This document shows positions 4,218 through 35,665 of a DNA stretch of 64,000 bases, piece after piece (position 1 is the first letter of the stretch; each line of letters starts with the position of its first letter). Made by a program: the position numbers and the translations under genes. The notes under the pieces were generated by a model, which saw only the letters and a list, made by a program, of their open reading frames with translations, had not been told where the DNA came from and did not search any database. This DNA is from Massilia alkalitolerans DSM 17462 (lineage in GTDB: Bacteria > Pseudomonadota > Gammaproteobacteria > Burkholderiales > Burkholderiaceae_D): positions 1 through 64,000 of the forward strand of contig NZ_ATYR01000031.1 in assembly GCF_000427785.1 (NCBI RefSeq). The letters are read 5' to 3'.

Positions 4218-4230
4218 TTGGAGAGTTGAG

Positions 4231-15741: not shown

Positions 15742-18700
15742 TTAGGTTGTTACCAAGTGCTCGTTGCCTTTTGACGCCGCGATGTCGACATCTTCTTCTT
15801 TTCGATATGCGAAGCGGTACAGCAGAGGTAGGACAAGTAGCGTCAACGCAGTCGAGGAAAGAATTCCGCCTATAACAACTGTCGCTAAGGGGCGTTGTAC
15901 CTCGGCGCCTGTCCCTGTGGCGATAGCCATCGGTACGAAACCAAGTGATGCAACCATCGCTGTCATAAGGACAGGGCGGAGCCGCGTAAGAGCGCCGAGT
16001 CCAATTGCTTCGTCCAGAGACATGCCTTCTTCACGAAGGCTGCGAATGAACGAAATCATGACCAGGCCATTAAGCACTGCAACGCCTGACAAAGCGATGA
16101 AGCCGACTGCTGCGGAGATTGAGAAGGGGATTCCCCGAAGCCAGAGTGCAAGTACCCCCCCGGTAAGCGCAAAAGGAATGCCTGAAAACACAATCAGTCC
16201 GTCACGGAGATTGCCGAACATGGCGAAGAGCAGAGTGAACACTAGAAGCAGAGCTAGTGGAACCACCACCTTCAAACGGCCGGCAGCCGACTCCAGTTGC
16301 TCGAATTGCCCGCCCCATACTGTCCAGTACCCGGCCGGTATTGACACGGACTTTTCAATCGACGCTTGAGCTTCGGTCACGAACGAGCCAATGTCTCGTC
16401 CGCGAACGTTCGCAGACACGACAACGCGCCGCTTTCCGCTTTCTCGACTAATCTGGTTAGGCCCAGGGCCAACCTCCAGAGTTGCAACCTCACTTAATGG
16501 AATAAAACGTGGACCAGAGGTCGATTGCTCCGAGCCGGGTAGCGCTATTGGCAGACGTCTCATCGTCTCAAGGTCGTTTCTCGTACCCTCTGGGAGGCGC
16601 ACCACGATATCGAACTGACGGTCGCCTTCAAAGACGGTCCCTGCTTCAGTTCCGCCGACGGCAGTGGCTACCGCCTTCTGGACATCACTGATGTCTAGGC
16701 CATAGCGGGATGCTTTGCCTCGGTCGATATTGACCGTTAACGTAGGCAAGCCGCTAGCTTGCTCAACCTTTACATCAGTAGCGCCAGGAACCTTCGACAG
16801 GGCAGTGGACAGCCGAGCTCCGGTCGCGGTAAGCACCTCCATATCGTCACCGAACACTTTGACCGCGACATCGCTTCGCACCCCCGAAATCAGTTCGTTA
16901 AACCGGAGCTGGATAGGCTGAGAAAACTCGTACGCATTACCAGGCAGAGTCGCTGCCGTTGCTTGAATCGCCTCGAGCAACTCGTCACGGGACTTCTTGG
17001 GTTTAGGCCACTGTGACTCCGGCTTGAGCATCACGTATCCGTCGGACATGGTTGGTGGCATAGGGTCGGACGCCACCTCAGATGTTCCAGTACGGGCAAA
17101 CACGCGCTCAATTTCCGGATGCTTGGCTTTAAGTTCCCGTTCTAGCTGAGCTTGCATAGTGACTGTTTGGGACAAGCTAGTGCCTGGGATGCGGTTTGCG
17201 TTGATGGCAAAGTCGCCCTCGTTCAGGCTTGGCGCAAACTCGCTGCCAAGACGCGTCGCTAGGAGGCCCGAGAGTACGATGCTGACTACTGCGAAAGTAA
17301 TGACAACGGCACCGTTAGCCATGACCTTGCGAAGGAGCGGCTCGTAGAGTCGCGTGGCTTGGTGCATCAACCTGCTTTCCTTTTCCGCCACCGACTTACC
17401 AATGAACAGCGCTACGGCCGCGGGAACGAAAGTAATTGAAAGAATCATCGCCCCAAGCAGTGCGATGACGACAGTTATCGCCATCGGATGGAACATCCTG
17501 CCCTCGACACCGGAAAGCGCAAAGATAGGCAGGTAGACCACCATGATGATGAGCTGGCCGAAGAGTAGCGGCCGGCGCGCTTCGCGCGACGCAGCGAAAA
17601 CCTCTTCGAAGCGTTCGGCTCGAGTCAGAGGGCGGCCGAGCCGTCCCTGTGCTTCTGCAAGTTTTCGCACGCAGTTTTCGACGATAACCACCGCCCCGTC
17701 GATGATGATGCCGAAGTCTAGGGCGCCCAAGCTGAGCAAATTAGCGCTGACCTTGTACGTGACCATGCCTGTAAAGGTGAAGAGCATCGAAAGAGGTATG
17801 ACCATCGCAGCGATGATTGCAGCGCGGATGTTTCCCAGGAAGAGAAACAGCACTGCGACGACGAGCAACGCGCCTTCTACCAAGTTCTTCTTGACGGTAT
17901 TAATGGCCTTATCGACCAGCACCGTTCGGTCATAGACCGTTATTGCATTCACGCCCTTTGGAAGTGTTCGGTTAATTTCCTTCATCTTCAGGTCGACCGC
18001 CTGGGAAACAGCGCGGCTGTTCTGACCGATAAGCATGAAGACCGTTCCAAGCACCACCTCGCGCCCGTTGTCAGTCGCGGCGCCCGTACGAAGCTCTTGG
18101 CCAATACTTACTTCAGCCACATCCCGAACGCGAATCGGAATTCCCTGAGAGGTTCCAAGGGTGATACTTGCAATCTCATCAAGCGACCGTACCTGTCCCG
18201 GTGCGCGAACCAGAAGCTGTTCGCCGCGACGTTCGATATACCCGGCTCCCGCCGTGCTGTTGTTACGGTCTATCGCTTCCACAATGTCCTTCATCGTGAA
18301 ACCGTATGCGGCCAAGCGCTGCGGATTGGGGGCCACGTGGTACTCCTTCACGTATCCACCAATGGAATTGACCTCAGTGACACCAGGCACAACGCGAAGC
18401 TGCGGCTTGATAATCCAGTCTTGGACCTCCCGAAGGTCTGTCGGCGTGTACGGTGTCCCATCGGGCTTGCGTGCGTTCTCATCAGCCTCTACTGTCCAGA
18501 GGTAGATTTCTCCGAGCCCCGTCGAAATGGGGCCCATTTCCGGGGTGACGCCTGTTGGTAGGCGCTCCTTTGCCTCCTGCAGCTTTTCGTTCACGAGCTG
18601 CCGGGCAAAGTAGATGTCGGTCCCGTCTTTGAACGTCACCGTCACTTGCGAAAGTCCGTAACGAGAAATGGACCTTGTCTGCTCAAGATTCGGCAGACCA

Positions 18701-18921
18701 GCCATTACGTTCTCGATAGGATACGTTACCCGTTGCTCCGACTCGAGCGGCGAGAACCCGGGCGCCGCAGTGTTAATTTGGACCTGAACATTCGTGATGT
18801 CCGGGACGGCGTCTATAGGAAGACGTTGATAGTTGTAGACTCCAATCGCCGCCATACCGGCAACGATTAGAAGGACCAGCCATCGGTGCGCGATGGCGAA
18901 GCGGATTAGACGTTCGAACAT
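15742..18921 (-). CDS. czcA: CzcA heavy-metal RND efflux pump
   Basis: 1059 residues, the usual length for HME-RND proteins, with 12 transmembrane helices and two large periplasmic loops. The proton-relay motif of transmembrane helix 4 is present (ALDFGIIIDGAVVIVEN), matching the Zn/Co/Cd class (HME1). The C-terminus is short (EEDVDIAASKGNEHLVTT). With CzcB and CzcC it forms the tripartite pump that expels Zn, Co and Cd across both membranes. It is separated from czcB by 14 bp. The sequence appears intact. Confidence 0.96.
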   Translation of the reverse strand: MFERLIRFAIAHRWLVLLIVAGMAAIGVYNYQRLPIDAVPDITNVQVQINTAAPGFSPLESEQRVTYPIENVMAGLPNLEQTRSISRYGLSQVTVTFKDGTDIYFARQLVNEKLQEAKERLPTGVTPEMGPISTGLGEIYLWTVEADENARKPDGTPYTPTDLREVQDWIIKPQLRVVPGVTEVNSIGGYVKEYHVAPNPQRLAAYGFTMKDIVEAIDRNNSTAGAGYIERRGEQLLVRAPGQVRSLDEIASITLGTSQGIPIRVRDVAEVSIGQELRTGAATDNGREVVLGTVFMLIGQNSRAVSQAVDLKMKEINRTLPKGVNAITVYDRTVLVDKAINTVKKNLVEGALLVVAVLFLFLGNIRAAIIAAMVIPLSMLFTFTGMVTYKVSANLLSLGALDFGIIIDGAVVIVENCVRKLAEAQGRLGRPLTRAERFEEVFAASREARRPLLFGQLIIMVVYLPIFALSGVEGRMFHPMAITVVIALLGAMILSITFVPAAVALFIGKSVAEKESRLMHQATRLYEPLLRKVMANGAVVITFAVVSIVLSGLLATRLGSEFAPSLNEGDFAINANRIPGTSLSQTVTMQAQLERELKAKHPEIERVFARTGTSEVASDPMPPTMSDGYVMLKPESQWPKPKKSRDELLEAIQATAATLPGNAYEFSQPIQLRFNELISGVRSDVAVKVFGDDMEVLTATGARLSTALSKVPGATDVKVEQASGLPTLTVNIDRGKASRYGLDISDVQKAVATAVGGTEAGTVFEGDRQFDIVVRLPEGTRNDLETMRRLPIALPGSEQSTSGPRFIPLSEVATLEVGPGPNQISRESGKRRVVVSANVRGRDIGSFVTEAQASIEKSVSIPAGYWTVWGGQFEQLESAAGRLKVVVPLALLLVFTLLFAMFGNLRDGLIVFSGIPFALTGGVLALWLRGIPFSISAAVGFIALSGVAVLNGLVMISFIRSLREEGMSLDEAIGLGALTRLRPVLMTAMVASLGFVPMAIATGTGAEVQRPLATVVIGGILSSTALTLLVLPLLYRFAYRKEEDVDIAASKGNEHLVTT

Positions 18922-18935
18922 GAGTGTGCTCCGCC

Positions 18936-20177
18936 TTAGTGAGAATCTTCGTCGCTGGATTTACCCAGCTCCGCTTTGATTACAAAGCTGTTGGCGGCAG
19001 CGTACTCGGTGCCTGGGGCGAGACCCTTCGTGACCTCGACCGTCGCAGTATCTCTACGGCCAAGAGTCACGTGCTCCGCTCGGAAGCCTCCGGGCATACG
19101 GACAAATACCGTTGGCTTCTCTTCAACAGTTTGAAGCGCGGCCGCTGCAACCGTAACCGGCGCTTCCCGCTGATTTGACTGGAGCTGTACCTCGACGTTG
19201 ACGAACAGTCCTGGACGCCAGGATAGGGCGGGATTTGGAAGGACAACGCGGGCAGTGGCAGTACGAGTTTCAGCACCGAGCAGCGAGCCGACGTACGCAA
19301 TTTTCCCAACGGCCTCAGTTTCAAGCGCGCTTGCTCTGACTGTGACTTGCTCCCCAACACGCACGTTAACGAGGTCACTGGCCGGCACCGCGACATCTGC
19401 CCAGACGGTGGAAAGGTCGGCAATGGTAAAGAGGGATGAGTTCTCCTTGACAGACTGACCCAAGGAGACGGCCTTTTCTACGACTACACCGTGGAAGGGA
19501 GCCCGGAGCTCGTAGCTGTTCAACCCGCCTTTGGAATAGGCGCTGGAGCCGAGAGCGCGAAGCTTTTGCTCCGCGTTGCGATAGTCAATTTCTGCTTCCT
19601 GCATCGCTTGGCGGGCCTGCAGATAGTCCTGCTCTGGCGAGATTTTTTCTTCCCACAGTTTCTTCTCACGCGCGAGGGTCGTTTTGGCAAGCGATAGCCG
19701 CTTTTCGGCAGTGAGCAGTTGGCTACGCAGGTCCGAGAGTTCCACGCTTGCGATAACGGCCAGCACTTGCCCTTTTTTCACTGATTGGCCGATGTCCGCG
19801 TGTACAGCCTGTACGGTCCCCTCAAGGAGTGGGACAACCTGTGCCGTCCTGTCCTGGTTGAACTTAATCTCTCCCGGAAGAGAAAGCGTAGAACGTATCG
19901 TAGCTGGCGCGGCCTTCAATACCTTGATTCCTGATGCCGAGATTTGAGCGTCCGTGAGTTTGACGCTGTCGGAATGCGCCTCTTCGGCTTCATGGGAATC
20001 TTCGCCGGCCTCGCCTTCCGCCTTGCTCGCCATCTGTTTCTCTGCGTGCTCTGCCTCACCTGCCTCGGCAGCTGGAGCCCCTGGCTTGGTCAATATGATA
20101 AGGAGCGCCAGGACGACGCCTACGGCTAGGATGCCGACGATATACGCCAGCTGTTTCTTTGACATTTTGCTGTCCAT
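18936..20177 (-). CDS. czcB: CzcB periplasmic adaptor
   Basis: 413 residues. The N-terminal membrane anchor (AYIVGILAVGVVLALLII) is followed by an acidic Glu/His stretch (EAGEAEHAEKQ, EDSHEAEEAHSD), typical of metal-binding CzcB N-termini. Next come the split lipoyl/barrel-sandwich domain (VVPLLEGTVQAVHADIGQSV), a coiled-coil hairpin, and the beta-barrel and membrane-proximal domains. It bridges CzcA and CzcC and may pass zinc to the pump. A second ATG four codons in (20165) is also possible as start. Confidence 0.94.
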   Translation of the reverse strand: MDSKMSKKQLAYIVGILAVGVVLALLIILTKPGAPAAEAGEAEHAEKQMASKAEGEAGEDSHEAEEAHSDSVKLTDAQISASGIKVLKAAPATIRSTLSLPGEIKFNQDRTAQVVPLLEGTVQAVHADIGQSVKKGQVLAVIASVELSDLRSQLLTAEKRLSLAKTTLAREKKLWEEKISPEQDYLQARQAMQEAEIDYRNAEQKLRALGSSAYSKGGLNSYELRAPFHGVVVEKAVSLGQSVKENSSLFTIADLSTVWADVAVPASDLVNVRVGEQVTVRASALETEAVGKIAYVGSLLGAETRTATARVVLPNPALSWRPGLFVNVEVQLQSNQREAPVTVAAAALQTVEEKPTVFVRMPGGFRAEHVTLGRRDTATVEVTKGLAPGTEYAAANSFVIKAELGKSSDEDSH

Positions 20178-20186
20178 TTTCGTCTC

Positions 20187-21482
20187 TTAGTGTTCGATGT
20201 TCGGCGTGTCTACGCCGGTAATACGTGTGATGTCCGCGGCGGCACGATGCGATTCAGAGAAAGCACGCAGGTAATCCGCTTTCGATTGGATAAGAGTACG
20301 CTGAGCATCTAACACATCGAAATATGCGAACTTGCCAAACTCAAATCCCTTAACGGCTGCGTCATATGCGCTTTGGGCACCTGGAAGAATGTCGGAGGCG
20401 AGTGCCTGAGCCTCATGACGAGACACGCGCAGCCGTTCATACGCTTGGGCAAGGTCGGTGTAGGTCTTGGTCTCGGCAGCTTCGAACTCATCCTTTGCAA
20501 CATCTGTTCGACGCAGTGCTTCAAGGACGTTTCCACGATTCCTATCGAATAGCGGTAGAGGTACCGAGAGGCCAAAGACTGCCTGATTTCGACCCGGCTC
20601 AGCTGACCGCTTTACGCCAGCCGTAATGGCGACGTCAGGAATACGCCGACTCTGTTCAACTGCGACGAGGGCCTCGCGACGGGCCACCTCGACACGAGCG
20701 CGGACTACTCTAGGCAAGGACGAGAACTTAGCAGCTAGAACGTCCCAGCTTGGAAGCTCGGGAAGATTGGATACCGTACCAACGGCATGCTGGAATTGCG
20801 GAGAGCGGTTTTTCCAAGTAGAGGCCAAGGCAAGCCGCGCGTTGTTTAGTTCACTCTGCGCTTTAGAGACCTCGAGACGAACATACGATTGTGCGACACG
20901 GGCCCGGGTTTCCTCTACCGGTGAGGCTTTACCTGCTTGCACGCGTTTAGAGACCGCAGTCGTCACTTTGTCGGCAACGTCTTGCGATTCTTGGGAAAGT
21001 CGCAAACGCTCCTGGGCCGCTACCGTGTTCATGAATGCCGTAATGACGTCGGCCTGCACTGCAGCGCGCCTGACGCGAAGGTCAGCCAGTGCCGCGTCTT
21101 GGGCCCGTTCAGCTGCGTTCATACGACTAGCACGTCTCCCGCCCAGTTCAAGCGGTTGGCTGAGCTGAACAGTAGTTTCTCTGGTTTCGCGCCTGGTATC
21201 CTCGACTCTAATCTCAAGAGTTGGGTTGGGCAGGGTTCGGGCCTGCATGGTCGCCGCCTCTACGGCCAGGACCTCATGTTCGGCTGCGCGAAGTTCAGGG
21301 TTCGCCTGGAGTGCCAAGCGAAGCGCGGCTTGTAGAGATAACGGGTCAGAGGCTTCACGCGTTTGGCTGGCAACACTTGAAGGCATCGTATGCCCGAGCT
21401 GCGCAGCCGGGTGCGCCGTTATTTGGGCAAGAGCTGGACAGCTCAATGCCACCGCAAGAAGCGGAATGATTGGTCGATACAT
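20187..21482 (-). CDS. czcC: CzcC outer-membrane efflux protein
   Basis: 431 residues, signal peptide MYRPIIPLLAVALSCPALA, then two OEP repeats rich in Ala/Arg/Glu helices (LSLQAALRLALQANPELRAAEHEV...). This is the TolC-like channel of the Czc pump. It ends 9 bp before czcB. It differs from the copper-island OMF at 2799 in lacking a lipobox. Confidence 0.93.
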   Translation of the reverse strand: MYRPIIPLLAVALSCPALAQITAHPAAQLGHTMPSSVASQTREASDPLSLQAALRLALQANPELRAAEHEVLAVEAATMQARTLPNPTLEIRVEDTRRETRETTVQLSQPLELGGRRASRMNAAERAQDAALADLRVRRAAVQADVITAFMNTVAAQERLRLSQESQDVADKVTTAVSKRVQAGKASPVEETRARVAQSYVRLEVSKAQSELNNARLALASTWKNRSPQFQHAVGTVSNLPELPSWDVLAAKFSSLPRVVRARVEVARREALVAVEQSRRIPDVAITAGVKRSAEPGRNQAVFGLSVPLPLFDRNRGNVLEALRRTDVAKDEFEAAETKTYTDLAQAYERLRVSRHEAQALASDILPGAQSAYDAAVKGFEFGKFAYFDVLDAQRTLIQSKADYLRAFSESHRAAADITRITGVDTPNIEH

Positions 21483-21555
21483 CGAATTCTCCGAAATTTG
21501 GACGAAATTCGACGGGACCCCTTGTTAGGGACTAACGGAGGGAGTCTCGTCGCTG

Positions 21556-21900
21556 CTAGGCGACGAGATGCCAATCGGGCTTTGAGGGGCCCTCTGGGAT
21601 ATGTGATGAGTAGTTCAGCGTTCTGAGTGCTGCATGACGGCGCGCCTCAGGATTGGCAGGTTCGTCAGGGGTACTTGTGAAAAAGGCATGCGAGAAGAGG
21701 TGGCAATACTCGCAGTCTGCGTGTGCTTTCTCCATCTCTCCGTCGTCGTCGGCCGCGCCGAGCTTCTCCTCATGCTCGTGCGCATGGTGCCCAAAATGCA
21801 GAGTAGCTCCGGTCTCATGCTGGCAATACGAGGCAGCGGCTGACCAGGAATACTGGGCAGGCAGTACGAGCATCAACAGTATGAGGAGAAATCTTTTCAC
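21556..21900 (-). CDS. czcI: CzcI-type small exported protein
   Basis: 114 residues with signal peptide MKRFLLILLMLVLPAQYSWS. The mature part has the CzcI pattern: YCQHET, LHFGHHAHEHEEK, then HADCEYCHLFSHA, and a short C-terminal tail with PSKPDW. It is rich in His and Cys, so periplasmic metal binding is likely. CzcI genes open czcICBA operons and are thought to modulate their expression or metal delivery. It is 73 bp upstream of czcC. The gap to the ATPase gene upstream is 61 bp, so transcription could continue from it. Confidence 0.85.
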   Translation of the reverse strand: MKRFLLILLMLVLPAQYSWSAAASYCQHETGATLHFGHHAHEHEEKLGAADDDGEMEKAHADCEYCHLFSHAFFTSTPDEPANPEARRHAALRTLNYSSHIPEGPSKPDWHLVA

Positions 21901-21961
21901 GTTGCGGACGATAGCATAAGTATGGTTAAGACGAAGTGTGGGCTCACAATATCGGCGTGGT

Positions 21962-24376
21962 CTATGACGGTGCTCTGCTAGATTTCAGTAGGCGCAGTCC
22001 GTTGAAAACGACCAATAAGCTTGCCCCGACATCAGCGAACACGGCCATCCACAATGTCGCAGAACCAGTTAGCGCAAGAGCAAAAAAGACGCTTTTGATG
22101 CCGAGCGCAAGCACTATGTTCTGAATCAGAATCGCATGGGTTGAGCGGCTGAGGGATACAAATGTAGCGAGCTTTGTCAGGTCGTCATTCATGAGCGCGA
22201 CGTCAGCGGTCTCAATGGCGGTATCGCTGCCAGCAGCACCCATGGCAAACCCGATATCTGCCTTGGCCAACGCTGGAGCATCGTTGATGCCGTCGCCGAG
22301 CATGCCGACCATGCCGAATTGTCTCTGAAGTCCTTCCACTTCTTGTAGCTTCTGCTCTGGAAGAAGCTGCGCGAGAACCGTGCTAATTCCCGTAAGCTTT
22401 GCCACATGCTGTGCCGTTCGCTCGTTATCGCCAGTGAGCATTACAGTGGTAACGCCCATCTGCTTTAACCGGCCGATGGCCAGTGTAGCTTCCGGGCGAA
22501 CTGAGTCAGCCACTGCAATCACCCCCAGAACTGAGGCGACATTGGCCAAAAGGACTGTCGTCTGCCCTTGCTCCTCAAGTGTGGCAAGAACTTGCTCTAC
22601 TGCGGGAGTGAGGAGGCCCAGCTCCCTTATCAAGCGCTGGTTACCCAAGTGGTATGCCACTCCGCTGATGGTGCCCTGGACTCCACGTCCTGGCAGGGAT
22701 TCAAAGGACATTACGGGCATCGGTGCGCCACTTGACACGGAGGCAGCGACAATTGCACTCGCCAAGGGATGTGACGAATTTATGTCCAGACTACCGGCAA
22801 TACGCAGAACGTCTTCGCTTGATAGGGACGACATCGTAGCTACTTCGGTAACTTTCGGCCGGCCGGTCGTAAGGGTGCCCGTTTTGTCTACAGCAATAGC
22901 CCGAAGTCTGTAGCCGGTTTCAAGGAACTGGCCACCTTTCACCAAGATGCCCATCCTTGTTGCAGCAGTGAGGCCGCTCACGATAGTCACCGGCGTGGAG
23001 ATGACCAGGGCACAAGGGCAGGCGATGACCAAGAGCACTAGGGCCCTGTAGAGCCATGGGGCAAATTCTCCGCCAAATACCAAAGGCGGAACTAGCGCGA
23101 CCGACAACGCCAAGAGGACCACAGCAGGAGTGTAGTACCGTGCGAAGACGTCGACAAAACGCTGGGTCGGCGCCTGATTACTCTGCGTTTCCTCGATTAC
23201 TCGAACGATTTTGGCAAGGGTGCTGTTTCGGCTGTCCGACGTCGCCTTGACTTCCAGGACTCCTCGCTCATTGATGGTGCCGGCAAACACCTGGTCACCG
23301 GCTGCTTTGTCGACAGGTACGCTTTCGCCGGTAATAGGTGCCTGGTTTACCGAAGACTCGCCGGCCTGGACGATGCCATCGAGCGAGATGCGGTCACCAG
23401 GCTTCACTAGAAGGATATCGCCGACTTGTACCGCTTCGACAGGTACTTCGCGCAGTTCACCGGTAGGTGACCGAAGGTTGGCCACGTCAGGTGCTAGCTT
23501 AAGCAGACTATGGACGGCGTTTCTGGCCCTAGTGAGCGATAGGCCTTCGATTAGCTCGGCGACAGCGAAAAGGAAGACAACCATTGCGGCCTCTGGCCAC
23601 TGACCGATTACGACCGCGCCGATGACCGCGAGGCTCATCAGAAAATTAATATCAAGAGTCAGGGTTCGAAGTGCTATTAGCCCTTTCCTGAGAGTCGGTA
23701 TGCCACCTGTGGCGATGGAAATAAGGGCCAAGGCTATCACGAGGGGAGAGGAGTCCGTGTGCGTTGTCCAGGCGAACGCTTCCGCAGCGGCTGCGGTGAA
23801 TCCAGAGACTGCTAACAAGAATTTTTGACTCGTCGTGAGGCCCGCCGACGCGCCATCGTTACCAGGAGTCGCCGCAGTTTCGTCCACTAGCTCCGCATTC
23901 ATTCCGACCGACCGTAAGGCAGTGGCAAGGGTGTCTGTGCTTTTGAGCTCATGGTGGACTGTAAGCGTTCTACTCATGAGGTTAAAGTTCAGTCGAAGAA
24001 CGCCCTTTATCGGCTCCACCTTGTTACGGATGAGCCGCTCTTCAGTAGGGCAGTCCATGTTGGAAATACGGTAGCGCGTTACGTCTGCCCCTGCAGGCGC
24101 CATAGTCACTCCACCAGGGGGCGGAGCGCTACTCGCTTTTGCACAACATGCTGCTGCCGAGCTCTCGGGACGTTCTTCCGCAACCCGGGCAATATTCGCC
24201 GTTGGCGGCAACTCGCCTCGTCGGTTTGGACTCGTGCTATCGCACGCGCAGCATGATGGCGTCTGACCCGTTGGGTTAGCGTGCATTTCTGTTTGCACAG
24301 GTATTGGTGAGTCCAACGCTTCGGGAGCGTCGGCAAGGGCTTGTGAACAGCAAGATTTGCTACTTTCGGGGTTCAT
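21962..24376 (-). CDS. cadA: Cd/Zn/Pb-exporting P1B-type ATPase (CadA/ZntA)
   Basis: 804 residues. The N-terminus is Cys-rich (KSCCSQA, PSCCACDS, AAACCAKASS), then an HMA domain with YRISNMDCPTEERLI (CPTEE metal site), then eight transmembrane helices with IACPCALVISTP, actuator TGES, DKTGTLTTGRP, SSHPLASAI and [11 protein letters not shown]. It pumps divalent soft metals (Zn, Cd, Pb) from the cytoplasm. It is divergent from cadR with a MerR-type promoter in the 78-bp gap. The extra N-terminal cysteines beyond the HMA domain may bind Pb or Cd. Confidence 0.94.
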   Translation of the reverse strand: MNPESSKSCCSQALADAPEALDSPIPVQTEMHANPTGQTPSCCACDSTSPNRRGELPPTANIARVAEERPESSAAACCAKASSAPPPGGVTMAPAGADVTRYRISNMDCPTEERLIRNKVEPIKGVLRLNFNLMSRTLTVHHELKSTDTLATALRSVGMNAELVDETAATPGNDGASAGLTTSQKFLLAVSGFTAAAAEAFAWTTHTDSSPLVIALALISIATGGIPTLRKGLIALRTLTLDINFLMSLAVIGAVVIGQWPEAAMVVFLFAVAELIEGLSLTRARNAVHSLLKLAPDVANLRSPTGELREVPVEAVQVGDILLVKPGDRISLDGIVQAGESSVNQAPITGESVPVDKAAGDQVFAGTINERGVLEVKATSDSRNSTLAKIVRVIEETQSNQAPTQRFVDVFARYYTPAVVLLALSVALVPPLVFGGEFAPWLYRALVLLVIACPCALVISTPVTIVSGLTAATRMGILVKGGQFLETGYRLRAIAVDKTGTLTTGRPKVTEVATMSSLSSEDVLRIAGSLDINSSHPLASAIVAASVSSGAPMPVMSFESLPGRGVQGTISGVAYHLGNQRLIRELGLLTPAVEQVLATLEEQGQTTVLLANVASVLGVIAVADSVRPEATLAIGRLKQMGVTTVMLTGDNERTAQHVAKLTGISTVLAQLLPEQKLQEVEGLQRQFGMVGMLGDGINDAPALAKADIGFAMGAAGSDTAIETADVALMNDDLTKLATFVSLSRSTHAILIQNIVLALGIKSVFFALALTGSATLWMAVFADVGASLLVVFNGLRLLKSSRAPS

Positions 24377-24406
24377 ATCAGCACCTTCAAAATCTAGTAT
24401 GCTTGC

Positions 24407-24437
24407 ATTAGAAACCCTGTAGCCCCTACGGGGTCAA
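24407..24437 (-). promoter_or_regulatory. CadR-type promoter/operator of the cadA gene
   Basis: On the minus strand, -35 TTGACC (24432-24437), a 19-bp spacer and -10 TCTAAT (24407-24412). The spacer contains the near-perfect inverted repeat ACCCTGTAG-CCC-CTACGGGGT (24414-24434, one mismatch), the operator type of CadR/PbrR. Distortion of the 19-bp spacer by metal-bound CadR should activate cadA. Confidence 0.9.
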
Positions 24438-24454
24438 GCAATTTTGGAGGACGT

Positions 24455-24862
24455 ATGCGCATCGGAGAATTAGCTAAACAAACTGGATGCGATGTCGAGA
24501 CCGTTCGATACTACGAAAAGGTAGGGCTACTGCCAGACCCGTCACGTACCGACTCCGGTTATCGGCAGTACCTCCCGGCCCACCTGGAGCGGCTTCAGTT
24601 CATCCGTCATTGCCGGTCTTTACAGATGGGACTCCCTGATATCCGCGTGCTCCTAGAGCTCCAGGCGCAGCCGACCAGCGGATGCAAGGGCGTAAATGAC
24701 TTGCTTGACCATCACATTGAACTTATCCGGGTTCAAATGCAAAAGCTCCAGAGCCTGGAGCAGCAATTGATGAGGTTGCGCCACCAATGCGAAGAGCCGC
24801 ATCTGGTGCAAGAGTGCGGCATCTTGCAGAATATGAGCGAGAGTGCTTCGAGCAATGGTTGA
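24455..24862 (+). CDS. cadR: CadR/PbrR-type MerR-family metal regulator
   Basis: 135 residues. N-terminal winged helix (MRIGELAKQTGCDVETVRYY, then EKVGLLPDPSR), dimerisation helix, and metal-binding cysteines Cys77 (TSGCKG), Cys112 (HQCEE) and Cys121 (QECGI). The three-cysteine set points to Cd/Pb sensing rather than zinc (ZntR) or copper (CueR). Ribosome site GGAGG lies 5 bases before the ATG. It is divergent from cadA with a shared operator. Confidence 0.94.
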   Translation: MRIGELAKQTGCDVETVRYYEKVGLLPDPSRTDSGYRQYLPAHLERLQFIRHCRSLQMGLPDIRVLLELQAQPTSGCKGVNDLLDHHIELIRVQMQKLQSLEQQLMRLRHQCEEPHLVQECGILQNMSESASSNG

Positions 24863-28851: not shown

Positions 28852-29119
28852 GTAGGGCTGAGGAGGGCAGTCCAGCTGGGTGTGCGTATCGGGGCGCTTT
28901 GAGAAGTTTCCTGCTCAGCACATCTAGTTGTTGGAAGCCTTCACTGCAACAGACGGTCTGTAAGTAGGATGTTTGCGAAATCGGGAGCAGATACTCATAT
29001 CCGGATTGAGAGACAGAGAAAGCGCTCAATAACCCACGGCGGTGGTGGGAGTTTTATGTAACCGAAGCGCTAGTGACAGGCGATGGTCACTACATGGTGA
29101 TTTGACGTGAAGCAAAACA

Positions 29120-29400
29120 TGGTGCCGAGTGTCTGGATTGAACAGACGACCTACCGCTTACCTTACCACTACGGCTTTCGCCGCCTTTCGTTTGTGGTCT
29201 GGACTATCCCTTAGCCATAGCAACACCTTAGGCCCCCTCCGTCTAGTCTCTACACCTTCCTGCATAAGCAAGCTTGGCTCGGGATTGGCATAGCCAAAAT
29301 GGCTTTAGCGTTCCCCGAATTTGAAGGGTTCTACTCCTGCCGTTTCCAGCAGGGCACTCGTATGTTCAAGGCGGTTGCTCTACCACTGAGCTAACCCGGC
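29120..29400 (-). tRNA. tRNA-Thr(UGU) split by a group I intron
   Basis: 5' exon 29400-29368 (33 nt) and 3' exon 29161-29120 (42 nt, CCA encoded). Spliced, it folds as a full cloverleaf: acceptor GCCGGGT/ACTCGGC (one G-U), D-arm GCTC-AGTGGTA-GAGC, anticodon stem ACCGC/GCGGT, loop CTTGTAA with anticodon TGT, T-arm GTCTG-TTCAATC-CAGAC. The intron lies between U34 and G35. A -10-like TATACT is at 29411-29416 on the same strand. It lies 60 bp behind the gin operon. Confidence 0.95.
29162..29367 (-). ncRNA. Group I intron (IC3-like, 206 nt) in the tRNA-Thr anticodon loop
   Basis: The 5' exon ends in U and the intron ends in G, as group I splicing requires. P1 is three pairs between exon CUU and guide GAG (29359-29357) with the U-G wobble at the splice site. 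P2: CCTGC/GCAGG. P5-like pairing TTCGGG (29319-29314)/CCCGAG (29283-29278). P7, the guanosine site: GACTA (29248-29244)/TAGTC (29206-29202). P9 hairpin CGGC-GAAA-GCCG (29183-29172). Core strings CAAATTCGG, GAGCCAAGCTT, AAGGTGTAGAGACTAGACGG and ATAGTCCAG match my recollection of the Azoarcus tRNA-Ile intron (about 205 nt), and less closely the cyanobacterial tRNA-Leu intron. No homing endonuclease is inside. Confidence 0.95.
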
Positions 29401-29462
29401 ACTGTCTTCTAGTATACTCTATTGTCCACGACAACAGGAAGCACTTGGGCTTGGCGTGTGCA

Positions 29463-29948
29463 TCATTCACTCTTCTTGCTAGGCGAGCGCTGCCTGGACG
29501 TCTTCAAGTCAATCACTGCTGCTCGTTCGGACGGCATAGCAACGGGACGTACGGCCTCACCAATCGCTTTGTAGTCATGCCAGAAGCGCTCCAACGCGTT
29601 CAATCCGCCTGCTGTCATTACGGCCCGAATACACGCTGCGTGTGACGCTATCAAAGCTTTGACCTGGATGCCGAGCATGTCGTTGGCGTCCTTCGCTTGA
29701 GCCAGCTTGTCGCTCAAAGACTGTGACTGTACGAAGTGAGGGTTAAGCGCACTGCGAAGCTGCGTTTGGCGGTCCTGATAGTTCGTTATCATCTCCATAC
29801 GGTCGGGGTCTCTGGTAAAGGCCGACGCGTTGCGCAGGCTAGCATGGTGGCGAGAAACCTCTCGTGCAGTGATGTCAATATCTGCAGCTAACAAGGCATC
29901 TAACACCCTCGACAGTTCAAGGTTCGACGAGTCAAGCTTCGGCTTCAT
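29463..29948 (-). CDS. ginD: GinD-like small protein of GInt recombination operon
   Basis: 161 residues, helical and basic, no recognised enzyme motif (LDSSNLELSRVLDALLAADI..., ending KTSRQRSPSKKSE). Its start overlaps the ginC stop (ATGA 29945-29948). In GInt islands the fourth gene of the gin operon encodes a small putative DNA-binding protein required with the three recombinases for integration and excision; position, size and coupling fit. Assignment rests on operon context more than on its own sequence. The tRNA-Thr starts 63 bp downstream. Confidence 0.7.
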   Translation of the reverse strand: MKPKLDSSNLELSRVLDALLAADIDITAREVSRHHASLRNASAFTRDPDRMEMITNYQDRQTQLRSALNPHFVQSQSLSDKLAQAKDANDMLGIQVKALIASHAACIRAVMTAGGLNALERFWHDYKAIGEAVRPVAMPSERAAVIDLKTSRQRSPSKKSE

Positions 29949-31840
29949 TTGAATAGGTCCTTCGCAGGCTTTGAGTGGTCAGGGCCATCGTTGAACAAGG
30001 GTACATTTGGCTGCGCAGCCAAGGCGATGTCAATACCGGAAATCAAACGCTCAGCATGTGCAACTTGGTTCTTGCGCCCTGTCGAAGTGAGAGGCTTGGC
30101 TGCCGCAGTGTCCCTCATCACTCGAAGATTGGCTCGAAGTGATTCCAACGAGATTCGATGCTCCTTCATACCGCTCGGAAGGTAGTGGCGACAGTTATCA
30201 AAACACTTGAGGTGCCGAACACATGGGTTTACAGCAAAGCTCGTTATACAAAAGCCATAGGGTGTTGCGTGAAACCCGTCACTATTTTGCGCCAAATACA
30301 TGAAAGCGGCCTCATCACCACTCTCGCTTTGTATCTTCTTGAACGCCACAGCTATGGGACTTCCGCCGAACAAATCGGACAAAACCATCTTCGCAACGGT
30401 CTCCTGCGGCGTTCCCGGCACGATGAGCTTGGCCGCTTTTTCTGGAATTTCAACATCTTTTAAACGCTCAGCCAGACTCCGGTGGTCGTACACGTAGCTC
30501 TGTGCTACCGACTGGCGGCCGAAATGCTGAGTGATAACAGTGTCCGGTACACCCTGTCGGAAGAGCTCAGTATTCATCAAATGACGTAAAGAATGCGACA
30601 GGACGAAGAGGTTGGATTTGTTTGGGAGAGTACTGTATTTAGTGAAAATTGTGTCTTTCCCTTTATCGGTGCTCAAGAAAGCTGCAAAAGAAGATTGTGC
30701 GGCAATTTCAATTTTTTCAGTCTCAGGAATGACGCCTGGTAGTTCACCGCGACCACCATGAATTACCAGGAACAGGAAATCAGCTAAAGAAAGCTCCTCT
30801 CCCGAAGCAGTTTTATATATACGCTTTGAACCTGAGCGGGTCTTCAGCGCATCCCTAAGTGGCTGCGTTGCTTCCAGAATGCCCGATACCGTTGACGCTA
30901 CGAGCTCTTCGAAGCGCGCGGGGACCCACTGAAAATCCTCAACTAGGACTTTAGAGCCCTTCTTTCGCCTTTTTTCTCCAAAATATTTGAGCCTCAGAGA
31001 ACGGCTGATGCCTCCAACCTCACCAGCCGCCTTCCCGGTAACGATATCAACATGGTCCTCCCACTGTAAGCAGTCGGCAGGAAGCAAAATTATCTCGTTT
31101 AACCTCAAGCCAGTTAGGGTCACGAGGCGAGCAATCCCAAATCGAATTTTATGTTGATGTCCAATCGGCGCTTCTTGGAACACGATTCGCACCATTTCGT
31201 GTAACGCATCGACATCCGGAAGCTTTTCCTCACCTTTTCTTGCGCCTAGCATAGTGCTCAAAAAAGCATTGACTTCTTTTTTGTCTCGATAAACGAGAGG
31301 CACATGTGCGGAAAGCAAATTCGAGTTAATGACGTTAGCAAGAACTGCTATGCTGGCAGTAACCTTATCGTTTTTTGGAACCAGCTCTAAATATCTGTTT
31401 AAGTCTTCAGAATTGAGTTGCCATGGAAATTTGTTCGTACTTGAAAAAAAATTCCTCAGCAAAGAGAACTCATTCCGAACATTTCTTGGAATTATTCCTT
31501 CTGAGGCCCGTTGCGCCACTAGTGCTTTCAAAAAGTCTTGAATTGCTTCGCTTAATACCAAGTCAGGCGGTAACAAAACCTCCGGCCATCCGGCGGAAAG
31601 CGCTTTTTCACGCACTTCATTGTTGATAGCGAAACTGTTCAGGCGAGCAGCATGGCGCTCGTTATTCGACGTTAATTCTCGCAGGTCCCAACTATCACAA
31701 GCCCTAACGTTTCCGTTCTCATCATGAATAATTTCCCATGACAAACCTTTTTCGGCGACAAGTTTCCGCCCTTGCTCTATAAAGCGTTGATAACCTGCCG
31801 GAGCTCGCGAGTTAATAGTTTGACTTGAAGCTTTTCTCAT
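29945..31840 (-). CDS. ginC: Tyrosine recombinase GinC
   Basis: 631 residues. The catalytic domain (about 200-480) shows the first arginine in TLTGLRLNEIILLPADCL, the His-x-x-Arg box in LSHSLRHLMNTELF, a histidine in ITQHFGRQS and the nucleophile region QSYVYDHRS. A cysteine cluster follows (GFCITSFAVNPCVRHLKCF then DNCRHYLPSG), probably a zinc-binding C-terminal domain. This is the largest of the three recombinases, as in GInt operons. ATGA overlaps on both sides couple it to ginB and ginD. Confidence 0.85.
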   Translation of the reverse strand: MRKASSQTINSRAPAGYQRFIEQGRKLVAEKGLSWEIIHDENGNVRACDSWDLRELTSNNERHAARLNSFAINNEVREKALSAGWPEVLLPPDLVLSEAIQDFLKALVAQRASEGIIPRNVRNEFSLLRNFFSSTNKFPWQLNSEDLNRYLELVPKNDKVTASIAVLANVINSNLLSAHVPLVYRDKKEVNAFLSTMLGARKGEEKLPDVDALHEMVRIVFQEAPIGHQHKIRFGIARLVTLTGLRLNEIILLPADCLQWEDHVDIVTGKAAGEVGGISRSLRLKYFGEKRRKKGSKVLVEDFQWVPARFEELVASTVSGILEATQPLRDALKTRSGSKRIYKTASGEELSLADFLFLVIHGGRGELPGVIPETEKIEIAAQSSFAAFLSTDKGKDTIFTKYSTLPNKSNLFVLSHSLRHLMNTELFRQGVPDTVITQHFGRQSVAQSYVYDHRSLAERLKDVEIPEKAAKLIVPGTPQETVAKMVLSDLFGGSPIAVAFKKIQSESGDEAAFMYLAQNSDGFHATPYGFCITSFAVNPCVRHLKCFDNCRHYLPSGMKEHRISLESLRANLRVMRDTAAAKPLTSTGRKNQVAHAERLISGIDIALAAQPNVPLFNDGPDHSKPAKDLFK

Positions 31841-33372
31841 GCTGGAGTCGCATTTTGTTGTGAAATGACGAGTGCTTTTTGGGCCCCGGCTATAGCAGTA
31901 TTCAACTGCAAGTAAGCTGGATTTTCCTTGTTACCACCAGCTCTGATGAAGACGATTACCTGCTCTCGCATTCCTGCAATTGCCTCTTTATGCACGTTAG
32001 GGTCGAGCACAGGCATATATTTTTTGCAGTTGTAACAGGACATAACCGGGTCGTAGACACAGGACCCTTGTCCGCTAGCGCATAATCCAATCCCCGCAAT
32101 TAACCTGTCGCCAACAATTCCAGCAATCTGCTTGTCTTCATGTGCTGCTTCCAACTGTTCTCTTGTGACGTATTCTCCAGTAGCAATCGACTCAATTGTA
32201 GAGTAAAGTTTGGATGTCCCTAAAGCCTTGTTGATAAAATGGGCCTGTTTTCTGGTTGACCGGATATAGGGAGTCGCAGAGTTCGGATGTGATTGCCCCA
32301 AGTAATTACTGATATCGTGGCGACCGTGACCGGCATCGGCTAAAGTCTGTCCGCCAGTATGTCGCAATTTGTAGTAGTTGTACTGGATTGAAATTCCAAA
32401 TTGCTTGCCTACTTTCTTTGTGTATCTCCAAAGTTTTTCACTGTCTGTCGTTGCAAACAATCTAGTGCGACCGGCAGCGGCCGCCGCGTCTAATAATTTG
32501 AAGACTAATGGAGCCCATTCTGGCTTAAGCTGCCTGGAAATTTCTTTGATTTCTCCCGTGTTCTTCTTTTTGGCCTCATGAAATGAGATAATGCAGGCAA
32601 CTTGACCCTCGCTCTCATCAAGAAGCTGGACGTGATTCGTCATAAGAGTCAGTATTTGGACCGGACGAATCCCGTGCTGGAATCCTAGAGCTAGAGCTGC
32701 TAACCCTTCGATTTGCCATTCAAGCAGGTCGTCGGCGCCGCCTTTTTCGTCCAATAAGCGTACGATGTCAGCCTGGCTAGAAGGCTCTAGCAGCTTTGAG
32801 CGTTTTGCAAGCTTGTCCTTCTGAGCCGCTACAGTACCGTTCGCCCTGGTGCTAAGTCCTTTTACTAAATTTTTATGCGTGACGTCCCAAGGACCGAGCG
32901 AGTGTTTAGCTGCCAGCTTCAAGATGGATTTTCCAGCTTTAGCAAGGTCAATGGTAAGTATTTTTGCGTCCCAGAATAATTTGATGACTGCCGGGTCCGT
33001 CTGCAGCATTTCAACATACACGTTCCAGTGCCGCAGCAGGGTGGAGGCGAACTTGTAGAACGATGACGGTGCAGCCTGTACTTGCGTTAAGAGAACAAGT
33101 TTCTGCTGAAATATACCAAGTTCGCCGGATAAGAAATTAAATTTTCTTTTCACCCCTTGAACGGATACTGTCCACGTAGGCTCACCCAATACGACGGTCC
33201 ATGATGCAAGCGTATCTTCGTCAGCGGGAATCGGTTCACCAGATGAGACGTTAGCTAACCCATCCGTGTATTTGTCACGGAGTGTGAACGTTCGCGGCAC
33301 GTTGGGCCAATCCCAATGTAATGGATTGGTGTTTAGTGTACTGCCGCCGCTAAGTAGATTATCAAGACTCAT
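31837..33372 (-). CDS. ginB: Tyrosine recombinase GinB
   Basis: 511 residues. Catalytic features: arginine in GFQHGIRPVQILTL, the RHTGG box in YYKLRHTGGQTLAD, histidine in NYLGQSHPNSA and tyrosine in TPYIRSTRK. The C-terminus has a cysteine cluster (LCASGQGSCVYDPVMSCYNC) like that of ginC, suggesting a shared zinc-binding module. In GInt elements the three recombinases work together on the island ends. It overlaps ginA and ginC by four bases. Confidence 0.85.
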   Translation of the reverse strand: MSLDNLLSGGSTLNTNPLHWDWPNVPRTFTLRDKYTDGLANVSSGEPIPADEDTLASWTVVLGEPTWTVSVQGVKRKFNFLSGELGIFQQKLVLLTQVQAAPSSFYKFASTLLRHWNVYVEMLQTDPAVIKLFWDAKILTIDLAKAGKSILKLAAKHSLGPWDVTHKNLVKGLSTRANGTVAAQKDKLAKRSKLLEPSSQADIVRLLDEKGGADDLLEWQIEGLAALALGFQHGIRPVQILTLMTNHVQLLDESEGQVACIISFHEAKKKNTGEIKEISRQLKPEWAPLVFKLLDAAAAAGRTRLFATTDSEKLWRYTKKVGKQFGISIQYNYYKLRHTGGQTLADAGHGRHDISNYLGQSHPNSATPYIRSTRKQAHFINKALGTSKLYSTIESIATGEYVTREQLEAAHEDKQIAGIVGDRLIAGIGLCASGQGSCVYDPVMSCYNCKKYMPVLDPNVHKEAIAGMREQVIVFIRAGGNKENPAYLQLNTAIAGAQKALVISQQNATPA

Positions 33373-34601
33373 TTCATTCCCCGGAAAGTCTCAAGCATTG
33401 CGTCGAAAGTCTTCGCTACTGAGTTCTTGACGTCATCCTGAATGGCGGCGCGCGCATAGGTATCGGGCATATTCGAATTTACGTCCCAGCCAAAGAAAAC
33501 CCTCATTCTGGCCAACGTTCTATCCTTATCTACGTCCGACAGAAACATTACATACCTGACGCATGCACAGGTATGCCTGAGGTCGTGCGAAGAAATGACC
33601 TTTTTGTTTGTTCGTTGGCGAAACTGTTTCAGTGCTTCAGGATTAATCGCAAGCGAAAATTTGCGCAATACTTTGCCCACCGACTCGGCAGAAAGTGGAT
33701 TGCCAGTGTTCGATGTAATCAAAAAACGGTGTTCCCTGCTGTCCACGCGATATTCTGAAATATAGCGTTCTATTAACAGCGCTAACTCTTCTGAAATAGG
33801 CACGTGTCGGTGTGATGCATGTGTTTTAATGCTAGGTCGCGTGGCGCGGGTATCGACATAAGTATCGTCCTCTTCAGGGGTATCGGTAACATTGAGCCAA
33901 TACTGAATTTCACCCGTCTCCATGTTCAGTTCTTGCTTGAGTGAGTCGAGAGTGAGTAACAATGTTTCGCCCCTTCTTAGACCACAGAGCAGCATAAGGA
34001 GAACGAGCAGCCAATTTCTGACCTGAACGGCAGGCGTTGCGTAGGGATTTCTCTCGGCGCCAGGCTCGGCTATCGCAAGCAAATCCCTGAGGGAGGCGTC
34101 AGGTAGCGCCCGGGTAAATTTCACCCTACCTTTGGTTGAGACGCGAATAGCGCCTGGCTGCGGAATTACCTTTTGGAGGGAACGCCATTGCTGGTCACCT
34201 ACGGCCCAGTGATTAGCGAAGAAATGGAAGAAGCTGCTTACAGAGTCCCAGCACGCAACGTCTGTAGTGGTTTTGGGGACCTTTGTCGTGAGCGCGACGA
34301 AGAAGTCATCGAAAATGCTGCGTAATCGGTTCGCCTCTTTGTCGCCAAATGCATTGTCGAGAGCGTGATGACCGAACTTCTTATCACAGTAGAGATAGAA
34401 GCGGTCGAGGTGGCGAAGGCGCTGGGTCAGAGTATTTTCAGCCCAATTCTGGCCTTCGTATAGCGACCAAACGGTCGACCAGTACCGCGGTCGAGGAAGG
34501 GGCGACGACTCTGTGACGACGTGACTAGGCAGCGCGTCTGTGCGGACGATTGGCATAGGGCTAGGCAACCAAGACGGAGTTGGCCAAGCGATGGCATGCA
34601 T
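33369..34601 (-). CDS. ginA: Tyrosine recombinase GinA
   Basis: 410 residues, a complete phage-integrase-type protein: SAM-like N-terminal core-binding region (about 50-140), then catalytic arginine in LLCGLRRGETLLL, the HDLRHTCACVRY box (His-x-x-Arg), and tyrosine in NMPDTYARAA. It is the first gene of the gin operon, closest to the island boundary. Initiation is at ATG 34601; another in-frame ATG (MPIVRTD) lies 15 codons in. About 380 bp separate it from the broken tRNA-Thr, whose promoter points toward it. Confidence 0.87.
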   Translation of the reverse strand: MHAIAWPTPSWLPSPMPIVRTDALPSHVVTESSPLPRPRYWSTVWSLYEGQNWAENTLTQRLRHLDRFYLYCDKKFGHHALDNAFGDKEANRLRSIFDDFFVALTTKVPKTTTDVACWDSVSSFFHFFANHWAVGDQQWRSLQKVIPQPGAIRVSTKGRVKFTRALPDASLRDLLAIAEPGAERNPYATPAVQVRNWLLVLLMLLCGLRRGETLLLTLDSLKQELNMETGEIQYWLNVTDTPEEDDTYVDTRATRPSIKTHASHRHVPISEELALLIERYISEYRVDSREHRFLITSNTGNPLSAESVGKVLRKFSLAINPEALKQFRQRTNKKVISSHDLRHTCACVRYVMFLSDVDKDRTLARMRVFFGWDVNSNMPDTYARAAIQDDVKNSVAKTFDAMLETFRGMK

Positions 34602-34981: not shown

Positions 34982-35016
34982 CAAATCAACTGCTCTACCT
35001 GATGAGCTAAGTCGGC
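34982..35016 (-). pseudogene. 5' half of a disrupted tRNA-Thr (probable island target site)
   Basis: Reading from 35016 leftward: acceptor strand GCCGACT, TA, D-arm GCTC-ATCAGGTA-GAGC, A, anticodon 5' stem GTTGA and loop TTTG. Up to there it matches the first 35 bases of a tRNA-Thr(UGU). The next bases (AATACGTACC) do not give the required TCAAC stem, T-arm or acceptor partner AGTCGGC. It lies directly behind sspB, in the GC-rich backbone side of the junction, and has its own promoter. It is interpreted as the native tRNA gene broken after U34/G35 by the island. Confidence 0.8.
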
Positions 35017-35033
35017 TTAATCTTGGAACAACG

Positions 35034-35059
35034 ATTATACGCTATTTGATGCGTGTCAA
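35034..35059 (-). promoter_or_regulatory. Promoter of the disrupted tRNA-Thr
   Basis: TATAAT (minus strand, 35034-35039) lies 17 bp before the tRNA first base. TTGACA (35054-35059) is perfect but only 14 bp upstream of the -10 and falls inside the end of sspB, so the true -35 is uncertain. The promoter now fires into the island end and the gin operon. Confidence 0.65.
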
Positions 35060-35524
35060 CGTTGGACGCCCACCCTTCTTGGGCGGCTCGTCGTCATCGC
35101 TCGGCGTGGAAGCGGTTTCAGCCGCCGGCGTCTCCGCCCCCTTGGCCGGCACCGCCGACAGCGACGGCGCAGAAGCTTCCTCGGCAGACGCGGGCGCCAT
35201 CTCGGACGCCGTCACGTTCACCTCGAAGGCCATGCCCTGGCCATTCTCGTTCGCGTAAATCGCCAGCACGTTCTGCACCGGAATGTACAGCTCGCGCGAG
35301 ACGCCATTGAAGCGCGCCCGGAAGTGGATCGCGTCATTGTCCATCTTCAGGCCCGAGGTGGCGCCGTAGCTGATGTTCAGGATGATCTCGCCTTTGCGGA
35401 CGTATTCCATCGGCACCGTGGTGGCGGCGTCGACCTTGACCGCGAGGTAGGGCGTGTAGCCGCTGTCCGTGCACCACTCGTAGATGGCGCGCAGCAGGTA
35501 GGGCTTGGTGGAGATCTCTGACAT
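35042..35524 (-). CDS. sspB: ClpXP protease specificity-enhancing factor SspB
   Basis: 160 residues from ATG 35524 (MSEISTKPYLLRAIYEWC), the canonical SspB start; longer in-frame starts run into the upstream intergenic region. The conserved beta-rich adaptor domain is residues 1-110 (TPYLAVKVD, YISY-type GEIILNISYGATS, FNGVSRELYIPVQNVLAIYA). A disordered Ala/Glu tail ends in the ClpX-binding segment PKKGGRPTLTRIK. SspB hands ssrA-tagged proteins to ClpXP. It is usually co-located with sspA, which lies directly upstream. Confidence 0.95.
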   Translation of the reverse strand: MSEISTKPYLLRAIYEWCTDSGYTPYLAVKVDAATTVPMEYVRKGEIILNISYGATSGLKMDNDAIHFRARFNGVSRELYIPVQNVLAIYANENGQGMAFEVNVTASEMAPASAEEASAPSLSAVPAKGAETPAAETASTPSDDDEPPKKGGRPTLTRIK

Positions 35525-35665
35525 GGATGTGATAAAAAAAGCTATACCTGACCGCGCCAGTTTACCGGATTCGCCTGGGCGGCGTCCGAAACCGGCGCGT
35601 ATCGAATCGAGATGCGGAATCGAGTGACGATTGATGCGGGCGCGCAAACACGCCCGCAGCCAACA

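Follow-up and report, generated by a model that had tools for sequence, protein, structure and literature searches.

A tRNA-Thr(UGU) gene that is interrupted within its anticodon, and that lies directly beside an operon of recombinase genes, raises the question of what the insert is, whose gene it interrupts, and what purpose it might serve there. We addressed this question in the window (the whole 64,000-nucleotide stretch of Massilia alkalitolerans DSM 17462 that was analyzed), in which the gene and its parts are arranged as follows.

29120..29400, minus strand: intron-split tRNA-Thr(UGU) gene (the replacement tRNA), with CCA encoded (ARAGORN, introns allowed)
29368..29400, minus strand: 5' exon, ending in ..CCGCCTT (U34)
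29162..29367, minus strand: group I intron of 206 nt, with guide GAG, P1-P10 and a P3/P7/P8 core (RF00028 and covariation on 23 introns)
29120..29161, minus strand: 3' exon, with first letters GTAAGCGG (G35)
29411..29416, minus strand: TATACT, a -10-like box of the replacement tRNA, with a putative promoter role (spacer sequence)

The initial annotation had described a group I intron between the exons of a complete tRNA-Thr(UGU). Consistent with this, ARAGORN with introns allowed made a sole call in the window, a tRNA-Thr(tgt) at complement 29120-29400 with a 206-nt intron, which reproduces the proposed coordinates exactly, and the 75 nt of the joined exons, which include an encoded CCA, take the fold of a tRNA-Thr(UGU). 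When run without introns, ARAGORN reported no tRNA in the window, which is a caution for annotators, as an intron-blind scan of this stretch yields no tRNA-Thr(UGU). The covariance-model check proposed along with the annotation also came out in its favor: the Rfam model RF00028 (Intron_gpI) matched the insert at 29162-29367 over the full length of the model (40.8 bits, E = 6.5e-9 in a 701-nt stretch), and the intron was its single match up to E = 1 in the whole 6.1-Mb assembly, at E = 1.3e-8. The 40.8 bits lie below the RF00028 gathering score of 50, which is a curation cut-off rather than a biological criterion, and a default Rfam scan is therefore silent on this intron. Single-sequence folding of the intron was moderately better than that of shuffles (z = -2.08). 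Together with the covariation described below, these results confirm that a 206-nt group I intron, possibly of subgroup IC3, splits the window tRNA-Thr(UGU) between U34 and G35.

Relatives of the intron were collected with a DNA search pattern that combined the P7 core with the Thr 3' exon. In the genome_contigs collection (one genome per species, 84,980 species), the pattern gave 19 matches: 17 are tRNA-Thr(UGU) genes split by an intron, and two (L038 and L041) were discarded as chance; in viral contigs, it gave 10 matches, four in tRNA-Thr(UGU) and six in genes that we read as tRNA-Asn(GUU). With the window intron and that of a second species of the genus (G026, 92% identical), the set comprises 23 tRNA-Thr(UGU) introns of 200-229 nt (17 from genome_contigs, four viral, the window, and G026), and the intron tRNA-Thr(UGU) is thus known from 19 bacterial genomes, the window's included, and four viral contigs. 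Judging by record titles, the bacterial hosts are alpha- and betaproteobacteria, or unplaced proteobacterial MAGs.

On the alignment of these 23 introns, the named group I structure had 97.4% of its cells paired and two-sided changes in 26 of its 48 pairs, while 0 of 500 shuffles were as good and slid structures were 30-50% paired. P3, P4, P6, P7, and P8 each contain pairs that are changed on both sides, and P3, P4, P7, and P8 are paired in 100% of cells. All 23 introns (i) have a GAG guide that pairs with exon CUU, with a U.G at the 5' splice site, (ii) end in a terminal G, which belonged to the search pattern that recovered 21 of the 23, and (iii) form two P10 pairs beside the guide, between intron A-C and G-U of the 3' exon, one of which is a U.G in place of C-G in one intron. 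A third P10 pair is formed in 12 of 23. The Variovorax intron (L055:3956-4184) has a hairpin-like insertion of ∼24 nt in its P1 loop relative to the others.

The initial annotation had further proposed that the guide co-varied with a new host tRNA, away from that of an Ile-type intron. Such a change is unnecessary, because eight tRNA-Leu(UAA) introns (seven by script and L176 by eye) carry the identical GAG guide against the same exon CUU, and we discarded guide covariation as the mark of a host shift. The host-dependent part is P10: AC precedes the guide, for a 3' exon GU, in 22 of the 23 Thr introns, and TT precedes it, for a 3' exon AA, in five of the eight Leu introns. A tree of 38 introns (23 Thr, eight Leu, six Asn, and one Arg) recovered no single Thr clade and required five changes, with weak support, and blastn found the window intron ∼74% identical to plasmid tRNA-Leu(UAA) introns, in agreement with the possible IC3 assignment.

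Other tRNA introns were met alongside these. Matches to the intron occurred in 1277 of 72,556 plasmid records, mostly from Enterobacteriaceae and Acinetobacter, nearly all at 60-80% identity and at ∼74% among the matches listed. We rejected them as further Thr copies on the two of 1277 that were read, which we interpret as tRNA-Leu(UAA) (printed by ARAGORN as Stop(tta)): by this reading, L035 (CP142574.1) and L036 (NZ_OR492670.1) each hold, at ∼3984-4283 and near aac(3)-II genes, an unannotated tRNA-Leu(UAA) with a group I intron of 212-214 nt. In six viral loci (L058, L061, and L063-L066), the ARAGORN assignment of Thr(GGT) was rejected in favor of tRNA-Asn(GUU) split between U35 and U36, because the 5' exon CTGT and the 3' exon TAATC together form a typical Asn loop and the P1 pairing is also consistent; these are group I introns of 198-199 nt, and three of the loci (L063, L065, and L066) also contain a tRNA-Leu(UAA) with an intron. 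Five of the Thr-intron genomes have another tRNA group I intron (L172, L173, L174, L176, and L175), which resides in Leu(UAA) in four (233-298 nt) and in Arg(CCU) in Acetobacter.

As to whose gene the intron interrupts, it might simply be the strain's ordinary chromosomal gene, beside which an island merely landed; in several loci, the intron tRNA indeed lies near the native neighbor sspB. The remaining features of the window bear on this.

29463..29948, minus strand: ginD-like gene (161 aa), 62 bp upstream of the tRNA (four relatives aligned, 42-76% identical)
29945..31840, minus strand: ginC-like gene (631 aa), tyrosine-recombinase-like (PF00589 at 5.4e-6, just under cut-off; three relatives aligned)
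31837..33372, minus strand: ginB-like tyrosine recombinase gene (511 aa; PF00589 at 3.8e-5 and NF041502 at 3.5e-14, both under their cut-offs)
33369..34601, minus strand: ginA-like tyrosine recombinase gene (410 aa; PF00589 at 1.1e-11, above cut-off)
34982..35016, minus strand: 5' half (nt 1-35) of the native broken tRNA-Thr(UGU), 100% identical over 35 nt to a relative's intact gene
35042..35647, minus strand: sspB, the chromosomal neighbor of the native tRNA-Thr (PF04386 at 1.8e-38; same order elsewhere)
15742..24862, strand unassigned: probable cargo, namely an RND efflux triad, a heavy-metal P-type ATPase, and a MerR-type regulator (Pfam)

The native 5' half thus sits beyond the gin operon, after petC-sspA-sspB, and stops at 35 nt, which places the start of the island at ∼34981. 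The native 3' half was not found in the window; the same genome has it at position 28380 of contig C31 and a second copy at 36154, and the assembly is a draft in which C31 and the window contig (C23) are unjoined. The C31 stretch 28380-36215 (L121, L122, and L126 of the window genome, G000) contains these two tRNA-Thr 3' halves ∼7.8 kb apart, the first of them followed by a reading frame that, by eye, starts like a phage integrase, and this locus seems to have been struck earlier by another tRNA-targeting element.

A match to the sspB region is present in 61 of the 62 genomes of the genus, and loci were read for the 30 best-scoring of these 61. An intact intronless tRNA-Thr(UGU) is present at sspB in 28 of the 30, while two loci, those of the window genome and G026, are split, with the cut after the same base; the same two are the only ones of the 62 genus genomes with an intron tRNA. 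A gene that had always belonged to this chromosome would be hard to reconcile with (i) a separate broken native gene in the same genomes, (ii) an island situated exactly between the native halves in G026, Paraburkholderia, and Variovorax, and (iii) the lack of an intron in 28 of 28 intact genus loci read. That the intron tRNA is the ordinary chromosomal gene is therefore nearly refuted by the two native halves, and we consider it very improbable.

The intron tRNA had also been described as carried on a mobile island with gin-like genes, and this description holds, as a ginABCD-like operon adjoins the tRNA and the island splits the native tRNA-Thr(UGU). The operon (29463-34601) stands at one end of the island and comprises three genes for tyrosine recombinases or recombinase-like proteins and a small ginD, which overlap and follow the GInt order; the ginD-like protein has no match in Pfam, NCBIfam, or PHROGs. 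The ends of the islands are attL GATTTG|AATACG and attR GATTTG|TAATC, short repeats that are imperfect in Paraburkholderia and G026, with a crossover stretch of ∼6 nt that ends at U34 or G35, and the target tRNA is rebuilt at neither end. The efflux, ATPase, and MerR-type genes are probably island cargo; we infer their place inside the island, since the window shows no native 3' half.

The same arrangement recurs in other genomes. In G026, which is assembled in three contigs, both island ends lie on one contig and the island measures 8,987 bp; its ginC (L089, G026:C3) is split into two frames, and its recombinase operon therefore looks broken. The islands of Paraburkholderia CNPSo 3272 (5,930 bp) and Variovorax 679 (5,957 bp) each lie between both tRNA halves on one contig and contain ginABCD, the intron tRNA, a right arm with GCAAC repeats, and little more. 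In Pelomonas V22 and a Hydrogenophaga MAG, one contig bears sspB, the 5' half, and ginABCD, and another bears the intron tRNA, the right arm, and the 3' half. Upstream of its intron tRNA, Hydrogenophaga encodes a protein of 908 aa (L047:3279-6005) that has a TIR domain, matches TPR weakly, and is a possible defense cargo. In an Acidiphilium MAG, the intron tRNA occurs together with ginC-ginD, the left side falling outside the sequence available. Altogether, gin genes were found with seven of the 19 bacterial intron tRNAs, and the intron is hence not confined to gin-linked tRNA-Thr genes, a point that the initial annotation had proposed to check.

Among the other loci, that of Burkholderia WAC0059 comprises sspB, the right arm, a decayed 3' half, and the intron tRNA; the stretch read is free of gin genes, which would fit an island whose recombinases have been lost. 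An sspB match is followed after 62-372 nt by the intron tRNA in Thiomonas and three MAGs, and the stretches read there contain no gin gene; Thiobacillus has both halves in a different, mixed layout, which may involve another element; and in Zoogloea, Magnetospirillum, and Uliginosibacterium, neither sspB nor gin accompanies the intron tRNA over the stretches read. Ten of the 19 intron-tRNA genomes yielded a broken half, namely the window genome, G026, Paraburkholderia, Variovorax, Pelomonas, Hydrogenophaga, Burkholderia, Thiobacillus, MAG ZJ4 (3' half on a separate contig), and Acetobacter. In the other nine, a similarity search of the stretches read, plus one further search, found no broken halves, and strongly diverged ones could escape such a search.

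By standard decoding rules, reading of ACA codons requires Thr(UGU). An exact pattern for an intronless Thr(UGU) found none in 18 of the 19 intron-tRNA genomes, which are mostly drafts; the exception is Zoogloea, which has a second, intronless Thr(UGU), and the intron-free control relatives have one intronless Thr(UGU) each (4 of 4). The 62 typed tRNA genes of the window genome include Thr(GGU) twice, Thr(CGU) once, and no other Thr(UGU); they include neither Ile(GAU) nor Ala(UGC), and the draft's tRNA list is therefore incomplete. The 18 genomes without an intronless copy suggest that splicing of the intron is probably essential for growth, and, with no second tRNA-Thr(UGU) found to stand in, the replacement tRNA itself would almost have to be spliced.

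The opposite view, that the intron is a dead relic in a silent tRNA gene and that ACA is read by other means, could draw on the RF00028 score under the curated cut-off and on the few ACA codons in the chromosomal genes counted beside the island. It conflicts with the covariation and the invariant splice-site features (23 of 23 introns), with the position of this gene as the sole Thr(UGU) found in 18 of 19 genomes, and with the -10-like box upstream of the tRNA in all five islands read (a TATACT or TATAAT box is similarly placed in the four islands other than the window's), and we regard it as extremely unlikely.

Comparison of several genomes makes it highly probable, in our estimation, that the native tRNA-Thr(UGU) was broken by the island and replaced by a splicing tRNA. 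We propose that a GInt-like island uses its own three-integrase operon to integrate into the single tRNA-Thr(UGU) gene of its host, within the anticodon loop, which would leave the two dead tRNA halves that are seen in the sequence. The island would also supply a complete replacement tRNA-Thr(UGU) with a promoter-like box, so that ACA would still be readable; the gene is present, and its expression is presumed. The intron RNA, in the structure indicated by covariation, would fold and pair its GAG guide with exon CUU, and would then probably splice itself out, joining the exons to a normal tRNA. Since the intron lies at the edge of the short crossover sequence, the replacement gene would no longer be a whole attachment site in DNA, and would become an ordinary tRNA again in RNA. 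In what is the least certain step, the intron may thus hide the replacement from the island's own recombinases. The recombinase genes could subsequently decay, and the intron tRNA would stay because it is the only copy.

The last part of this proposal assigns to the intron the role of a shield: the replacement anticodon would be split in DNA and whole in mature RNA, and an essential gene would be invisible to the element's recombinases. We hold this most interesting reading tentatively, at somewhat less than an even chance. Its force differs among the islands. Over 30 nt around the crossover, the spliced replacement is identical to the target in Pelomonas (30/30) and nearly so in Variovorax and Hydrogenophaga (28/30 each), and an intronless replacement should therefore be almost as good a target there. 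In the window island and in Paraburkholderia, the two match at 19/30 nt; the replacement might therefore be safe without an intron, and the masking argument is weaker for these two.

A second type of element presents a similar picture. In Acetobacter lambici, a lone tyrosine integrase (PF00589) is flanked on one side by the intron tRNA and on the other by a 5' half that looks native and breaks off within the anticodon loop, and a predicted provirus in IMG/VR has a 99% identical integrase with an adjoining intron tRNA. The integrase has no match in the 'phages' collection. The 3' half of this element was not found, and the pairing of a broken native tRNA with an intron tRNA is therefore probable, not proven, in Acetobacter. 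Taken jointly with the role of a shield, and with the same reserve, it is conceivable that shielding arose with at least two unrelated elements, the GInt-like islands and the single-integrase, prophage-like Acetobacter element.

The main rival keeps the same island and the same rescue, and makes the intron a passenger that was captured together with the tRNA from an intron-bearing lineage, has no masking role, and persists because precise loss is rare; we consider this a real possibility, though one also short of even. It would readily accommodate the intron tRNA-Thr(UGU) near sspB, with no gin in the stretch read, in Thiomonas and the three MAGs, its further occurrence, apart from the Acetobacter provirus, in three viral contigs (28-218 kb), and the 11/30 nt at which the replacement already differs from its target in two islands. 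It leaves less well explained why every gin-island replacement seen, in several host families, has the intron at the crossover, and why the Acetobacter type of element shows the same pairing. The first of these points is to be read with the manner of sampling, as the islands were located through the intron, and intron-free replacements would escape.

Searches with GinC only (E of 1e-100 or better) gave eight genomes, a small number that includes two search centers (G000 and G063): four have the intron tRNA, none has an intronless replacement, and in the other four (G235, G615, G1043, and G833) there is no tRNA in the stretch read. G235 and G1043 have alike scores and may hold the same element. 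Moreover, no tRNA gene was found near the GinC relative in 23 other genomes or plasmids scanned (4 + 12 + 2 genomes and five of 22 matching plasmids), with one spurious call set aside; the stretches are short, and the split-contig Pelomonas would likewise appear tRNA-less there. Such islands therefore probably do not carry a tRNA as a rule. Viral contigs searched with GinC contained no relative.

If the intron is indeed a shield, which we consider tentative as stated, this would help to explain how group I introns enter and persist in new tRNA genes. The locus joins three subjects: introns in anticodon loops, tRNA genes on mobile elements, and the way in which elements that target essential genes spare both the host and themselves. 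It offers a small intron a directly testable function, and it shows that a host's essential tRNA gene may be permanently replaceable by an element's copy. What we consider new is (i) the Thr host, (ii) a GInt-like island that repays its damage with a tRNA, and (iii) an intron on the recombination site of that tRNA. In the literature covered (titles and abstract openings of the 12-25 best-ranked papers per search, with subscription journals little represented), there was no report of a group I intron in a bacterial tRNA-Thr, of GInts in tRNA genes, or of the combination of an island, a rescue tRNA, and an intron.

Group I introns in bacterial tRNAs are known from other hosts (review PMC3984707), and tRNAscan-SE 2.0 is described as not designed for detecting them (PMC8450103). 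The present introns resemble those in being small, in residing in the anticodon loop, in having the same core, and in sharing the GAG guide of the Leu(UAA) introns; they differ in the Thr(UGU) host, in the split after U34, and in being part of an integrative element. For cyanobacterial tRNA-Arg, Gly, and Lys, 'group I introns' of 22, 38, and 49 nt have been claimed as well (PMC5733544); in our judgement, these inserts are much too small to accommodate the core.

The islands resemble the GInt genomic islands (Bardaji et al. 2017, PMC5385486) in the ginABCD order at one end, the tyrosine-recombinase domains, the short imperfect end repeats, and the cargo after ginD, a likeness that we judged by layout, domains, and ends. 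They differ in their target: those named in that paper include an ABC transporter gene, ssb, and intergenic places, and the words tRNA and intron are absent from its main text. The SE elements, which a 2023 survey compared with GInts, RITs, and Tn554 (PMC10214605), similarly have several recombinases, a small accessory protein, and a 6-bp footprint; according to that survey, their proteins form separate clusters, and its main text contains neither 'tRNA' nor 'intron'.

The closest parallel for the exchange of tRNAs is tRNA-dependent lysogeny, in which tyrosine-integrase actinobacteriophages disrupt a tRNA gene and supply its replacement (Guerrero-Bustamante and Hatfull, mBio 2024, PMC10865867). 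As described there, an essential tRNA gene is likewise broken via a short core and never rebuilt, and the lack of another host copy, on which such integration turns, was found here in 18 of 19 genomes (by exact pattern, mostly in drafts). The word 'intron' occurs once in that paper, within a reference title. Those elements are temperate actinobacteriophages with one integrase, whereas the element described here is a genomic island with three integrases and with an intron at the crossover of its replacement tRNA.
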